Shown: positions 56,253 to 59,649 of the stretch, one piece after another
Position numbering within the stretch: the first letter of the stretch is position 1
How the letters are laid out: every line of letters starts with the position of its first letter
Source of the DNA: Flavipsychrobacter sp.
GTDB lineage: Bacteria > Bacteroidota > Bacteroidia > Chitinophagales > Chitinophagaceae
Assembly (NCBI GenBank): GCA_016786615.1
Contig: JAEUVX010000010.1
Span: 62,001 to 126,000 of the forward strand
DNA: 64,000 bases
Direction of reading: 5' to 3'
Program-made: the position numbers and the translations under genes
Notes under the pieces: generated by a model
What the model saw: only the letters and a program-made list of their open reading frames with translations
Told to the model about the DNA's origin: nothing
The model's database searches: none

Positions 56253-57230
56253 ATGAGCAATAAGGGTCCTGTTTCACAGTTTATACAACACCACTACCGC
56301 CACTTCAACGCGGCTGCGCTGGTAGATGCTGCAAAAGGTTACGAAACACATTTGCTGGAAGGTGGTAAAATGCTGGTATCGCTGGCGGGTGCTATGAGTA
56401 CCGCAGAATTGGGTATTTCATTGGCAGAAATGATACGCCAGGATAAGATAGCTATCATCAGCTGTACAGGTGCAAACCTTGAAGAGGATATCATGAACCT
56501 TGTAGCACATACACACTACAAGCGTGTACCTAACTACCGCGACCTGAGCCCGCAGGAAGAGTGGGAACTGCTGGAAGGTGGTTTCAACCGTGTAACGGAT
56601 ACATGTATTCCTGAAGAAGAAGCATTTCGCCGCATACAGCGCCACATCGTTAAGATATGGAAAGATGCAGAGGCGAAAGGTGAACGTTACTTCCCGCACG
56701 AGTTTATGTACAAACTGTTACTGAGCGAAGTAATGAAGCCTGATTATGAAATAGACCCTAAACACAGCTGGATGATTGCAGCTGCTGAAAAGAACCTGCC
56801 TATCATAGTACCGGGTTGGGAAGACAGCACCATGGGCAACATCTTTGCTTCTTACTGCATTAAAGGTGAGCTGAAAGCTAGTACCATGAAGAGCGGTATT
56901 GAATACATGATGTGGCTGACTGACTGGTACCGTGCAAACTCAGGCGGTAAAGGTGTTGGTTTCTTCCAGATAGGTGGTGGTATAGCGGGCGACTTCCCGA
57001 TATGTGTAGTGCCTATGATGTATCAGGATCTTGAATGGCACGATGTTCCGTTCTGGAGCTATTTCTGCCAGATAAGCGATAGTACTACATCTTATGGTTC
57101 TTATAGTGGTGCAGTACCTAATGAAAAAATCACTTGGGGTAAACTGGATATCCACACACCTAAATACATTGTTGAGAGCGATGCTACCATCGTTGCTCCG
57201 TTGATATTTGCGTATTTGCTGGGTTGGTAA
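56253..57230 (+). CDS. Deoxyhypusine synthase-like protein lacking the catalytic lysine
   Basis: 325 residues. The fold is that of deoxyhypusine synthase: AGAMSTAELGISLAEMIRQD near 45, IISCTGANLEEDI near 68, HYKRVPNYRDLSP, and the C-terminal WGKLDIHTPKYIVESDATIVAP. The eukaryotic enzyme uses a Lys in a GGG-x-x-K-H segment to form the imine intermediate. Here the equivalent is GGGIAGDF (241-248), with Gly in place of Lys. Bacteria also lack hypusinated eIF5A. The protein therefore probably has another NAD- or polyamine-linked role. It is monocistronic, between gltA and the inverted-repeat element. Confidence 0.85.
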   Translation: MSNKGPVSQFIQHHYRHFNAAALVDAAKGYETHLLEGGKMLVSLAGAMSTAELGISLAEMIRQDKIAIISCTGANLEEDIMNLVAHTHYKRVPNYRDLSPQEEWELLEGGFNRVTDTCIPEEEAFRRIQRHIVKIWKDAEAKGERYFPHEFMYKLLLSEVMKPDYEIDPKHSWMIAAAEKNLPIIVPGWEDSTMGNIFASYCIKGELKASTMKSGIEYMMWLTDWYRANSGGKGVGFFQIGGGIAGDFPICVVPMMYQDLEWHDVPFWSYFCQISDSTTSYGSYSGAVPNEKITWGKLDIHTPKYIVESDATIVAPLIFAYLLGW

Positions 57231-57252
57231 TTTTGTTGACAATAGATATTAC

Positions 57253-57284
57253 AAAGCGGTGGCTATGGCTACCGCTTTTTTTGT
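57253..57284 (+). terminator. Terminator of the deoxyhypusine synthase-like gene
   Basis: AAAGCGGT (57253-57260) pairs with ACCGCTTT (57271-57278), followed by TTTTTG. It ends 2 bp before the inverted-repeat element begins. Confidence 0.85.
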
Positions 57285-57285
57285 T

Positions 57286-57346
57286 TGCTCCATTTTGCTC
57301 CGGTGCTCCAATTATAGTAGTCTGGATTTGTGGAGCAAGTGGAGCA
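57286..57346. repeat. Left TGCTCC-word structure around AATTATAGTAG core
   Basis: TGCTCC occurs at 57286, 57296 and 57304; after the core AATTATAGTAGTCTGGATTTG the inverse GGAGCA occurs at 57332 and 57341. The words can pair in several registers. Confidence 0.75.
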
Positions 57347-57351
57347 GACTG

Positions 57352-57406
57352 TTTCATTTCATCCATTTCACAACTGGTGAAATGAAATGGTGAAATGAGT
57401 GAAATA
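57352..57406. repeat. Left TTTCA/GTGAAAT-word structure
   Basis: Repeated TTTCA words (57352, 57357, 57366) turn at CATTTCACAACTGGTGAAATG into repeated GAAAT words up to 57406. The centre gives an 8-bp perfect stem (CATTTCAC/GTGAAATG). Confidence 0.75.
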
Positions 57407-57419
57407 GAACCACTCGCCT

Positions 57420-57442
57420 CATTGCGAGGAACGAAGCAACTC
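57420..57442 (+). repeat. CATTGCGAGGA-ACGAAGCAAC repeat, copy A
   Basis: CATTGCGAGGAACGAAGC then AACTC. Similar attgcgagg...cgaagcaa words are known as dispersed intergenic repeats in several bacterial groups. Copies B and C lie at 57848 and 57950. Confidence 0.75.
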
Positions 57443-57518
57443 TTTTCATGGAGCGTAGCGGAATAATCTCACGAAATAAGCATATATATCAGTAGGTATT
57501 TTTTATCAATAGAGATAA

Positions 57519-57812
57519 TCAAAACAACTGTTCTGTTAAATCAATCCAATTGATATTCATACTTTCAACAAGTAATATCTTTTTCTTTCTGCTACCTCCT
57601 TTAATACGCTTTTCTTCTGCAATAGCCATTTCAATAGTATCAAAATATTGATAGTACACTAACAATACACAATTGTATTTAGCAGTAAAACTATTGATAT
57701 ATACTTTACTCTTGTGTTCGTATATTCTCTTAGGTAAATCAGACGTAACACCTGTATATAATGCAGTTTTATCAGGTGATGACATGATGTAGACTGCTCC
57801 TCCTTTATACAT
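57519..57812 (-). CDS. Small GIY-YIG family nuclease
   Basis: 97 residues. The GIY-YIG core is at the N-terminus: GAVYIMSSPDKTALYTGVTSDL, where VYI and YTG stand for the GIY and YIG motifs, followed by RIYEHKSKVY with the conserved Arg and His. The end has a charged IKGGSRKKKILLVESMNINWIDL segment typical of the short UvrC-like GIY-YIG proteins found in many copies in Bacteroidota. There is no extra DNA-binding domain. It is centred between the inverted arms of the 57286-58126 element, oriented minus. It may nick or cut DNA to mobilise or maintain these repeats, which is inference. Confidence 0.88.
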   Translation of the reverse strand: MYKGGAVYIMSSPDKTALYTGVTSDLPKRIYEHKSKVYINSFTAKYNCVLLVYYQYFDTIEMAIAEEKRIKGGSRKKKILLVESMNINWIDLTEQLF

Positions 57813-57847
57813 ATACTCAATATACTATAACACAATAATAAAACATC

Positions 57848-57898
57848 CGTCATTGCGAGGAAGTATTTGCGTATGCAAATATGTACGAAGCAACCTCG
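57848..57898 (+). repeat. CATTGCGAGGA-ACGAAGCAAC repeat, copy B, with a palindromic insert
   Basis: CGTCATTGCGAGGA and ACGAAGCAACCTCG are separated by an insert containing TATTTGC-GTAT-GCAAATA, a 7-bp hairpin. Copy B pairs with copy C to make a long hairpin. Confidence 0.75.
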
Positions 57899-57949
57899 AG
57901 ATATAAGTGTTGCTTGTACAATATCTATATAATGATACTTATCTGTATG

Positions 57950-57987
57950 TTGCGAGGTTGCTTCGTCGTTACCTCCTCGCAATGACG
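57950..57987 (-). repeat. CATTGCGAGGA-ACGAAGCAAC repeat, copy C (inverse)
   Basis: On the minus strand: CGTCATTGCGAGGA, a GGTAACG insert, then ACGAAGCAACCTCGC. Together with copy B it forms a long hairpin (57848-57987) whose loop also contains inverted ATAAGT/ACTTAT. It also has an internal TTGCGAGG/CCTCGCAA 8-bp stem. Confidence 0.75.
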
Positions 57988-58000
57988 CGAGTTGGGGGTA

Positions 58001-58060
58001 TTTCACTCATTTCACTATTTCACCATTTCAGGAGATAGTAATGTGAAATGATGAAATGAA
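58001..58060. repeat. Right TTTCAC/GTGAAAT-word structure around GATAGTAAT
   Basis: Repeated TTTCA(C) words on the left, the centre GGAGATAGTAAT, then GTGAAATGATGAAATGAA. It is the inverse counterpart of 57352-57406, but with an ATAGTA-like centre. Confidence 0.7.
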
Positions 58061-58065
58061 ACGCT

Positions 58066-58126
58066 TACTCCGATGCTCCATTTGCTCCAATCCTCCAGAC
58101 TACTATAGTTGGAGCAAGGTGGAGCA
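58066..58126. repeat. Right TGCTCC-word structure around ACTACTATAGTT
   Basis: TACTCC, then TGCTCC at 58074 and 58083, then TCCTCC, the core AGACTACTATAGTT (58097-58110), then GGAGCA at 58111 and 58121. The minus-strand core AACTATAGTAGTCT matches the left arm core at 57310. Confidence 0.75.
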
Positions 58127-58134
58127 TAATTGTT

Positions 58135-59649
58135 TTACCCCTTCACCCTCCCCAACAAATACTCCATGCCTACCAACTCTGCGCATGTAGCAATCGATGT
58201 GATGCTTACGCCGAGTACGCCGTGCAGATTTACGTTCTGTCCAGTTAGTAGCAGGTTGGGTATTTTGGTGCGGGTGGCTATGTTTGTTTCCGCAGGTTTA
58301 TTGATGTCTTTGAGGATGCCATATAGTGAGCCTTTGGGTGTAGCTGTATAGTCTCGGTAGGTGAGGGGGGTAGCAGTACTTTGTGCAACTATGTTCCCTT
58401 TCAGTTGGGGTATGCGCTGGTATAGTTTATCCAGCAACAGCTCTGCACGTATCTCTTTAAATGCTGCGTAGGCATCGCCCCTGTCTTGCTCGTGTCCTGT
58501 ACGGTTTATGATGTGTTCAAAAGGTGCTACCTCGCTGTAGTGCATATAGCTGAGTATAGATATGCTTTCGGCATAGCCGGGGTGCTGTGCATCTTCAGTA
58601 AAGAAAGCTGCATAGTTAGCAGGCCATTGCCCTGGATGGTAGTTTACAGCATCCCAAGCGTTGTTGTTTGCATGCCAGTAGATGTTGTAGTTGCGCATTG
58701 GTACCGTACCGGGTTTCAATACCACATTCAGCATAAAGGTAGAGGTGGTTTGTTCCAGTCCTTTTACACGCTTGCGGTATGCGGTACGGAATAGCGGGCT
58801 GTCAACCATATCAAGCAAAACTTCAGGTGCTACATTGGCTATAAATTGCTTGCCATAGTATCGTTGCCCGTCTGCGGCCTCTGCATAGGTGATGCTGCCG
58901 TTTTCTTCTGCAAGTTTTGTAACAGTTGTATTGCGATACACTTCTCCGCCATGTGCCTGTAGTTCCTGCCACAGATACTTAGATAACTGGCTGCAACCCG
59001 GCATCACTTTGTGGCTGCTGTGTATATAGCTCTCTGTAACCAATGCGTGTAGATAGAATGGTGTACGCTCTGCCACACCAGCATACAACAGGTTGTTACC
59101 TGCCAGTACGTTTTGCAGTTTTGTATTACTTGTTATGTCACGAAGCGTTTGTGTTACACCCCAATTACTTACAGCAGCTTTTTCATCTGCACTGCCATGC
59201 CTTAAACGATATAACGGAAAATGGTCGCCTATTTTGGTAACGGTCTTTACGTATTTCTCCAATGTCTCACGCTCGTCGGGGAAGTAGGGTAGCAATTGCT
59301 CTACAAAATTATCCAACCCCTGTGCATGTGGGTACATCACCTCCTCATCGCCAAAAGCTATCTTATCAAATGCGTTGTTATCATAAGCCTTCAGCGATAA
59401 CTTATCCATCACACCTGCATATTGCAGTATGGTGTGCAGTGTGTGCCCTTCGCCAAGCCCGCCTATATAGTGTACGCAGCTGTCAAATACTTTTTTGTGC
59501 AGCGAAAATGTTTGCAGGCAGCCACCTATCTGTTTATCACGCTCCAGTACACATACTTTCATGCCTTCTTTGGCAAGTATTACTGCACTGAGCATTCCGC
59601 CCAATCCTCCACCCGCTATTACTACATCGTATGTGTTTGGTGCAGACAA
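58135..59649 (-). CDS. CrtI/RetSat-like FAD-dependent oxidoreductase
   Basis: 504 residues from a TTG start just after the glmM stop (4-bp gap); no in-frame ATG precedes the FAD motif. The N-terminal FAD-binding site is YDVVIAGGGLGGMLSAVILAK with KVCVLERD, then QIGGCLQTFS. The region around GYAESISILSYMHYSEVAPFE is typical for the family. At the C-terminus LLTGQNVNLHGVLGVSITSIATCAELVG is the second FAD contact. The architecture is that of phytoene desaturase/all-trans-retinol saturase-like enzymes. A carotenoid role is possible but no other carotenoid gene is near, so the substrate is open. It is cotranscribed with glmM. Confidence 0.85.
   Translation of the reverse strand: MSAPNTYDVVIAGGGLGGMLSAVILAKEGMKVCVLERDKQIGGCLQTFSLHKKVFDSCVHYIGGLGEGHTLHTILQYAGVMDKLSLKAYDNNAFDKIAFGDEEVMYPHAQGLDNFVEQLLPYFPDERETLEKYVKTVTKIGDHFPLYRLRHGSADEKAAVSNWGVTQTLRDITSNTKLQNVLAGNNLLYAGVAERTPFYLHALVTESYIHSSHKVMPGCSQLSKYLWQELQAHGGEVYRNTTVTKLAEENGSITYAEAADGQRYYGKQFIANVAPEVLLDMVDSPLFRTAYRKRVKGLEQTTSTFMLNVVLKPGTVPMRNYNIYWHANNNAWDAVNYHPGQWPANYAAFFTEDAQHPGYAESISILSYMHYSEVAPFEHIINRTGHEQDRGDAYAAFKEIRAELLLDKLYQRIPQLKGNIVAQSTATPLTYRDYTATPKGSLYGILKDINKPAETNIATRTKIPNLLLTGQNVNLHGVLGVSITSIATCAELVGMEYLLGRVKG

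Follow-up and report, generated by a model that had tools for sequence, protein, structure and literature searches.

Repetitive extragenic palindromic sequences (REPs) of the CGTC type are short repeats that are widespread in bacteria. They were defined by Di Nocera et al. 2013 (PMC3733652), and the parts of that paper drawn on here describe a superfamily of four families with a (C/T)GTC or CCTC tag, a stem of 8–9 bp beginning with AT and a loop of 4–5 nt, arranged predominantly as inverted dimers and including dRS3 of Neisseria and RPE-4 and RPE-6 of Rickettsia; the same parts conclude that these repeats apparently have no transposase dedicated to them. In PMC3733652 the term GIY-YIG has 0 occurrences. 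The other close system is the REPtron, in which GTAG-tagged REPs accompany the gene of an HUH tyrosine transposase (Y1_Tnp), the REP-associated tyrosine transposase (RAYT or TnpA-REP), and are dispersed as inverted pairs (REPINs). Here we analyzed a stretch of 64,000 nucleotides (the window, G000:C11:62001-126000) from the genome of Flavipsychrobacter sp. (2.96 Mb, 15 contigs), in which an open reading frame (ORF) for a 97-aa GIY-YIG protein, P0001, lies at 57519–57812 on the minus strand amid inverted palindromic modules. The analysis suggests that such a GIY-YIG nuclease may be the dedicated enzyme of CGTC REPs, as RAYT is that of GTAG REPs. We give a probability of about two in three to the reading that the gene and the adjoining (C)GTC-tagged hairpins are the two halves of one selfish system, whose nuclease probably cuts the REPs and spreads them.

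The locus resembles a REPtron in that a small nuclease gene is flanked by cognate palindromes with a 5′ tetranucleotide tag, with CGTC instead of GTAG, and also in its dispersed, seemingly non-autonomous inverted REP pairs, its low gene copy number and an apparent enzyme–REP specificity, which is here deduced from cognate stems. It differs from a REPtron in its GIY-YIG nuclease (no Y1_Tnp domain was found in P0001 by Pfam at E ≤ 0.001), in a gene of only ~0.29 kb and in REPs that both belong to a near-symmetric terminal pair. With the described CGTC REPs our repeats share the tag, a stem starting with A, a short tail and the inverted dimers, and the arms found in Rhizobiaceae, Sphingobium and Neisseria have the stated stem and loop lengths, as in ATCCTCGGG/CTTGA/CCCGAGGAT among the Rhizobiaceae and Neisseria arms. 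In contrast, the window-type REP has a 5-bp ATTGC stem and loops of 10 nt or more, outside the four described families, and is therefore named CGTC-like here and not assigned to any of them. The tags in the window are CGTC at 57848 and at 57987 (minus strand) and CCTC at the left REP; elsewhere, in the set found by the motif-free detector described below, some tagged arms bear AGTC or GGTC. An autonomous unit accompanied by gene-less derivatives of its terminal repeats is also known from miniature inverted-repeat transposable elements and from the IS200/IS605 elements, from which the present unit differs in containing no DDE or HUH transposase and in that no target duplication was seen. The fold of the protein resembles Slx1/UPF0213; Slx1 requires Slx4 and acts in repair. 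A literature link between GIY-YIG proteins and REP repeats was not found in open-licence PubMed Central text, preprints lying outside that search, and its absence from print is thereby not established.

A scan of a genome collection yielded at least 576 relatives of P0001, of which 80 were kept, 75 of these with full flanks. At 51 of the 75 loci GTCATTGCGAG (1 mismatch allowed) was observed facing inward on both sides of the gene, compared with 0/67, 0/66, 0/66 and 0/65 at distances of 700, 1100, 1500 and 1900 bp further out. A motif-free detector, whose pattern is GTC followed by a 5-bp stem with A as its first base, a loop of 3–70, the complementary stem and a final C or T, and which requires this pattern to face inward on both sides no more than 300 bp away, was positive at 78 of 125 loci, against 0/103 at a distance of 900 bp and 0/125 after shuffling. 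The positive loci comprise ten stem types, and only 10 loci are inward-positive when a 6-bp stem replaces the 5-bp one. The detector set held 126 loci, one of which was dropped for a flank too short; L035, L036, L049, L058 and L060 are absent from it, and it is partly redundant (L113 equals L047, L120 equals L061, and L045/L046, L096/L101 and L098/L104 are orthologous or near copies). In the related genomes, 19 loci with a relative at E ≤ 1e-25 were taken and 16 remain after three at contig ends are excluded; inward REPs (≤2 mismatches) are present at 13 of the 16 and a strong inverted repeat at 12, while 800 bp away both counts are 0/16. A cross-locus control gave inverted repeats with a score of at least 20 in 74 of 473 cases, compared with 50/79 observed and 0/67 at a distance; since different loci have the REP motif in common, this control does not provide a clean null, and the distance controls were used instead. 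The pattern that joins gene and hairpins is real, general and strongly non-random.

The pattern distinguishes the P0001 type from other GIY-YIG genes, including UPF0213/Slx1-like ones, of the related genomes. A total of 31 such loci were examined (L001 and L003 included), and after nine with short flanks and six P0001-like ones were set aside, an ATTGC-type REP was found at 0 of the remaining 16. A strong inverted repeat is present at one of these 16, L234 (1280–1940, G055:C21), where the GIY-YIG gene is of a different, UPF0213-like kind and is enclosed by inverted copies of GTCACCCTGAGCCTGTCGAAGGG, also a tagged palindrome; the nuclease–repeat partnership may thus extend past the P0001 subfamily. 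Ten more distant relatives of P0001 (L050–L059) include five with a strong inverted repeat, for example TGTCATCCCGAGGAACGAGGGATCTG in L056.

The two arms of a unit also match each other. Identical stems were found in the nearest arms of 58 of the 78 positive loci, compared with a mean of 28.1 and a maximum of 37 in 2000 permutations, and among non-ATTGC stems 17 matched pairs were counted against a permuted mean of 1.0 and a maximum of 6. In G013, G004 and G055 the paralogues within one genome are flanked by different REPs (in G004, CGTCATTTCGACTGCAAGGAGAAATCTCC beside one gene and an ATGGC-stem type beside the other), so phylogeny cannot explain the pairing inside one genome. Ten paralogue loci were read for this comparison, with L394 and L395 not clean pairs; G010 is a partial case, in which L401 is clean and L395 and L063 are not. 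Stem type is clustered on the protein tree, with 12 changes against a shuffled mean of 16.8 and a value as low in 0 of 200 shuffles. Because the ATTGC stem alone requires 8 changes and few forks are supported, strict co-divergence of enzyme and REP is not claimed.

The typical unit of the relatives reads REP, gene, inverted REP, with the tags outermost, over ~0.42 kb; its tag-to-tag length has a median of 418 bp (quartiles 394–472) in the 58 units whose two REPs have the same stem. The boundaries were examined by aligning nine locus pairs. The three pairs formed by the unrelated loci L042 (G004), L046 (G006) and L062 (G002) align over 396–416 columns, tag to tag, the two REPs being shared as one block with the leader that separates REP from gene, and the homology ends at most about a dozen bases beyond the outer tags. 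In these three unlinked pairs, terminal inverted repeats bound the homology as they do in a transposon, and the other pairs are mostly too diverged. The homology of L038/L061 (both G008) runs tag to tag plus ~25 bp beyond the right-hand tag, and that of L037/L060 starts at an adjacent REP and stops shortly before the right tag; the alignments of L044/L048, L038/L046 and L040/L061 cover little more than the gene, and L039/L041 are the same orthologous locus. Close pairs of REPs are far commoner than random in G055, where 62 REP matches include 19 adjacent pairs within 300 bp (0.28 at random), 18 of them 160–220 apart, and the listed pairs are mostly plus then minus, which is the order of inverted dimers in the one genome tested. 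On contigs C12, C75, C53 and C11 of G011 the REP matches are clustered, some of them around GIY-YIG genes (C12:667, C75:5098). REP clustering around some RAYT genes is reported in the part of PMC8266576 referred to here.

Units are missing at most of the orthologous sites examined. By tblastn, one of 14 genomes, that of the window itself, has a GIY-YIG gene no more than 1.5 kb from the orthologous DHS gene. Of 10 cupin loci searched, two are distant paralogues and two of the eight close ones have the unit, as do two of 14 pruA loci (G001 cut at a contig end). The pruA units of G002 (L220 913–1346) and G006 (L221) are identical over 434 bp, with both ends of the identical run within REPs, whereas pruA itself differs at 38 of 900 positions (862/900 identical), and this identity appears to result from recent transfer or conversion. 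At the uvrA–cupin locus (L213 and L214), whose flanks are ~93–94% identical, G012 contains a unit and G011 a small unrelated ORF; an ORF similar to the latter was also seen in G002. The comparison of G011 with G012, covering 1.21 of the ~3.3 Mb of G012, revealed one presence/absence site, differing numbers of REP dimers and no clean empty site. The Sphingobium locus between fnrL and a response regulator carries the unit in seven records, with the gene frameshifted in TYG73. In Shinella, WSC3-e and HZN7 have the unit and the four relatives read are all without the gene, H4-D48, S. oryzae and S. zoogloeoides showing no tagged palindrome by eye and PSBB067 a different one. Directly beside the full unit of S. 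meliloti (L099 1670–1831) lies an internal-deletion derivative that consists of the unit's first 45 bp fused to its last 121 bp, at 93–95% identity, so that the left REP and leader are joined to the 3′ end of the gene and the right REP. No pair among these insertion-site comparisons was close or clean enough for a target duplication to be read. From such comparisons of sequence the mobility of the unit is well supported. The dN/dS ratio was 0.036–0.126 in five of nine gene pairs (three gave no dS and one had no differences), which points to purifying selection on the GIY-YIG gene.

Relatives of P0001 at E ≤ 1e-10 were detected in 26 of the 59 related genomes (its own included) and in 13 of 14 congeners. 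Nine or more exact GTCATTGCGAGG matches were counted in each of the 15 genomes with a relative at E ≤ 1e-25, against at most six in the other 44 of the 59; 13 of these 15 belong to one genus and are not independent events, with G054 and G055 from other families. By their titles, the 80 kept records of the genome collection include Bacteroidota, Alpha- and Gammaproteobacteria, Cyanobacteriota, Spirochaetes, Acidobacteria, Omnitrophota, Armatimonadetes and others. A tblastn search of plasmids added 20 records with relatives, and at eight of the 11 loci inspected by eye a cognate inverted pair of tagged palindromes lies directly around the gene. These clean pairs are CGTCATCCTCGGGCTTGACCCGAGGATCCA and variants in Rhizobiaceae (L095, L096, L097, L099 and L101, of which L096 and L101 are one locus in two Shinella), CGTCACCCCGGGCTTGACCCGGGGTCCC in Sphingobium (L098 and L104, the same locus) and CGTCGCCCCGTGCTTGACACGGGG in Novosphingobium (L102). 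Cognate REP clusters in both orientations were seen on both sides of the gene in Planktothrix (L094, TGTCATTCTGAG...GAAGAATCTC) and N. gonorrhoeae (L100, CGTCATTCCCGCGCAGGCGGGAATCTA), and L103 has palindromes on both sides with no clean inward pair. The Planktothrix agardhii gene, on plasmid p1, is situated in a defence region, between an MmeI-type restriction gene and DISARM drmA. At L058/L242 (G042:C2) the GIY-YIG domain is N-terminal in an open frame of 966 residues with helicase-like sequence, as judged by eye.

In the window itself, P0001 matches the GIY-YIG model PF01541 (E 2.5e-13), the sole Pfam model matched at E ≤ 0.001. Its residues Y8, Y19, G21, R29 and E67 are invariant across 26 aligned sequences and N86 is present in at least 90% of them; these we take to be the positions of the GIY-YIG catalytic set, so that the domain, by Pfam match and conservation, has the expected Tyr, Tyr, Arg, Glu and Asn. 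A phage origin of the gene is not supported, as P0001 has no match at E ≤ 1e-4 among 50,697 phage records, and no defence-family model matches it at E ≤ 0.1 (the S. meliloti relative gives weak matches only, best E 0.0049). The eight matches to known structured RNAs (E ≤ 1) in 57200–58200 all lie far under the family gathering scores. The left neighbour is a DHS-like gene with its stop at 57230, followed by a terminator-like hairpin (by eye), and the right neighbour is a CrtI-like gene on the minus strand with its stop at 58135.

The initial annotation had described this locus as a GIY-YIG gene of 97 residues between two inverted arms with the same order of modules, fitted tightly between a terminator and the stop of the next gene, and all of this holds. 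The arm pairs are 57304–57346/58074–58116 (43 nt, 86% complementary), 57383–57406/57999–58022 (24 nt, 96%) and 57412–57430/57974–57992 (19 nt, 95%). Its idea of the arms as one terminal inverted repeat is rejected, because the outer hairpins recur without the gene at orthologous loci. Most modules are palindromic in themselves by single-strand DNA folding, and each arm is therefore made up of three kinds of repeat: a TGCTCC word-array hairpin at 57286–57346 (left) and 58064–58126 (right), a TTTCAC word-array hairpin at 57351–57407 and 57999–58061 (z −3.6 to −4.5 for these four), and the inner REP. The inner repeat, (C)GTCATTGCGAGG...GAAGCAATCTC or, written otherwise, CATTGCGAGG...GAAGCAATC, is a REP-like hairpin with a CGTC tag. 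The left REP (57418–57442, plus strand) has a tag degenerated to CCTC (CTCATTGCGAGGAACGAAGCAACTC) and folds weakly alone (z −0.31 for 57418–57445). To the right of the gene lies a whole dimer at 57848–57987 (z −10.4), composed of a REP at 57848–57898 (plus) with an intact CGTC tag and another at 57951–57987 (minus) ending in ...CTCGCAATGACG. Three copies of CATTGCGAGGA at 0 mismatches occur in the window, all at this locus (57420 plus, 57851 plus and 57974 minus). The REPs nearest the gene are thus a plus-strand REP on the left and a complete dimer on the right, and the window copy is a rearranged member, less tidy than the units of the relatives and nested in other palindromic repeats.

The TGCTCC and TTTCAC hairpins are separate from the GIY-YIG element, since they occur at orthologous loci without the gene. 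The DHS–CrtI locus of G009 has TGCTCC and TTTCA hairpins and one REP without a GIY-YIG gene, those of G006 and G007 have TGCTCC hairpins and that of G004 has one REP and one TGCTCC-like hairpin, likewise without it; none of the three modules was seen in the orthologous stretches read from G011, G012 and G005. At the G009 locus (L187) another ORF takes the place of the GIY-YIG gene between the same word-array hairpins. The suggestion that the repeats would recur beyond this locus applies to the inner one, which is dispersed through the genome (TCATTGCGAGGA has seven exact matches, three of them here), and not to the outer modules, neither of which was found elsewhere in that genome by the arm searches. 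The stems of word-array hairpins consist of a word of 5–6 bp reiterated with spacers of 2–3 bp; the words seen are TGCTCC, TTTCAC, TGTTCAGG, TGTCCCAC, TGTACAC, TGTCCATT and TGTAACA. Besides the window, they were found at L026 1380–1690, upstream of the gene in L062, at L275 and at L363. The word varies by locus and genome with the format constant, and these hairpins adjoin REPs wherever they were seen.

Several observations weigh against a partnership of nuclease and REP as one mobile unit. The window copy is not a clean unit, and in four of the nine compared pairs the alignment covers hardly more than the gene or has limits that do not coincide with the ends of the unit. An ATTGC-type inward pair is missing at 24 of the 75 loci; 11 of these carry another or diverged tagged pair (such as CGTCACCCTGAATTTATTTCAGGGTCT in L132 and L153), and at the remaining 13 the arms lie on one side, face outward or have diverged too far, or none is visible by eye (for example L140 and L149). 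Outward pairs are also found, at 19/75 loci for GTCATTGCGAG and 23/125 with the motif-free detector. More distant relatives carry the ATTGC REP rarely, and the six P0001-like loci set aside above show it inward in 0/6, with a strong inverted repeat in 3/6. The co-occurrence of REP and gene over genomes is phylogenetically clustered, G034 has six REP matches and no relative at E ≤ 1e-10, and G049 (57% complete) has a relative at 2.9e-25 and zero REP matches. Gene copy number is 1–4 per genome, as for a domesticated gene. None of the Sphingobium, Sinorhizobium, Shinella, window and G011/G012 sites compared is a cleanly empty one with a duplicated target: the uvrA–cupin site of G011 is occupied by the other ORF, Sphingobium TYG74 and TYG64 have one double-tagged palindrome at the place of the unit and TYG72 and TYG65 other palindromes, and the corresponding site of Sinorhizobium K101 holds a solo palindrome with one tag degenerate. 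GIY-YIG enzymes, moreover, are known to be hydrolytic nucleases, and the joining step would need help from the host.

In another reading, which we think unlikely though far from negligible, the REPs spread otherwise and the GIY-YIG gene encodes a free-standing homing endonuclease with REP sites as its targets; once these are cut, recombination between REP arms would copy the gene into them. I-TevI and the Seg proteins are free-standing homing endonucleases of this kind, and they share the catalytic domain and the selfish spread with the present gene, which differs in its ~95 aa, the lack of a separate DNA-binding domain and its own flanking palindromes. P0001 is unmatched by homing-endonuclease family models and its relatives give only sub-cut-off matches; in a PHROGs search of four proteins, one (S. 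meliloti) weakly matches a homing endonuclease (E 3.1e-5). Gene-less orthologous sites have a solo palindrome in some cases and none seen in others, and units stand also where orthologous sites show no tagged palindrome by eye (the three Shinella sites, and G011, G012 and G005 at the window locus). In addition, leader and both REPs move as one block with the gene in three pairs, and double-tagged solos are equally explicable as deletions between palindromic stems. The low copy number, the purifying selection and the Slx1-like fold would also suit a domesticated host function, in which genome maintenance or transcription would rely on the nuclease to process the hairpins or cruciforms of REPs while its gene stays near REPs, immobile; we see little chance for this in view of the patchy presence at orthologous loci, the different insertion sites, the internal-deletion derivative and the tract identical between species.

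If instead RAYT or IS200-like transposases mobilised the CGTC-like REPs, the GIY-YIG gene would be cargo, and Y1_Tnp proteins do occur in 42 of the 59 genomes, that of the window included (one weak match). However, G002, G005, G006 and G012 (98–100% complete) hold units and, respectively, 22, 17, 25 and 24 REP matches but no Y1_Tnp match (E ≤ 0.001), the consulted parts of PMC3733652 report no tyrosine transposase gene flanked by CGTC repeats, and cargo status would not explain the stem-specific pairing; RAYT as mobiliser is disfavoured, its chance being very slight. Mere coincidence or an annotation artefact, with repeats simply frequent between genes, could appeal to the wide spread of the ATTGC-type REP, but the controls gave 0/65–67 at four distances, 0/103 without a motif and 0/16 at other GIY-YIG genes, although they are unmatched for intergenic position. 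This possibility is largely refuted and we consider it almost negligible.

The partnership of enzyme and repeat is well supported, because the association crosses phyla, stems pair with their cognates, homology is unit-sized, and presence and absence alternate at orthologous loci. The RAYT-like role that the initial annotation proposed for the GIY-YIG protein gains from the same evidence, with the outer modules falling outside the element. Its expectation that GIY-YIG relatives would stand beside such repeats is usually borne out (51/75, 78/125 and 13/16), and relatives do differ in arrangement, since the window's genome alone among the 14 has the gene at the DHS locus; the comparison of orthologous loci that it called for brought gene-less sites and no clean empty site with a target duplication.

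The association of gene with REPs, their cognate stems, the borders of the unit in some copies, its presence or absence among relatives, the deletion derivative and purifying selection on the gene are all seen in the sequences. We infer that the protein may cut its REPs and that this cutting may drive their spread. The autonomous form would be the ~0.4-kb REP–gene–REP unit with outermost tags, and REP dimers without the gene and solo REPs would be its non-autonomous or decayed forms. The target of the Slx1/UPF0213-fold protein is probably the tagged hairpin, which may be extruded as a cruciform or form on the single-stranded lagging-strand template, and the protein would then nick it at or near the tag. 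Host repair, template switching in replication or REP-to-REP recombination might copy the unit to new sites; alternatively, the same host processes might convert REP sites into gene-bearing ones.

Chances are about even that these units form a new class of autonomous ~0.4-kb bacterial element with a GIY-YIG nuclease as its sole enzyme, that this class mobilises the CGTC-like REP superfamily as a whole in Bacteroidota, Pseudomonadota, Cyanobacteriota and other phyla, and that some of the most frequent palindromes between bacterial genes, Neisseria dRS3 included, stem from it. If the GIY-YIG protein is the enzyme of CGTC REPs, a repair and homing nuclease fold would have come, independently, to do for them what HUH transposases do for GTAG REPs, and the units would rank among the smallest self-mobile elements. 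The pairing of enzyme and substrate would also be testable, as the stem of a REP predicts which paralogue should cut it.

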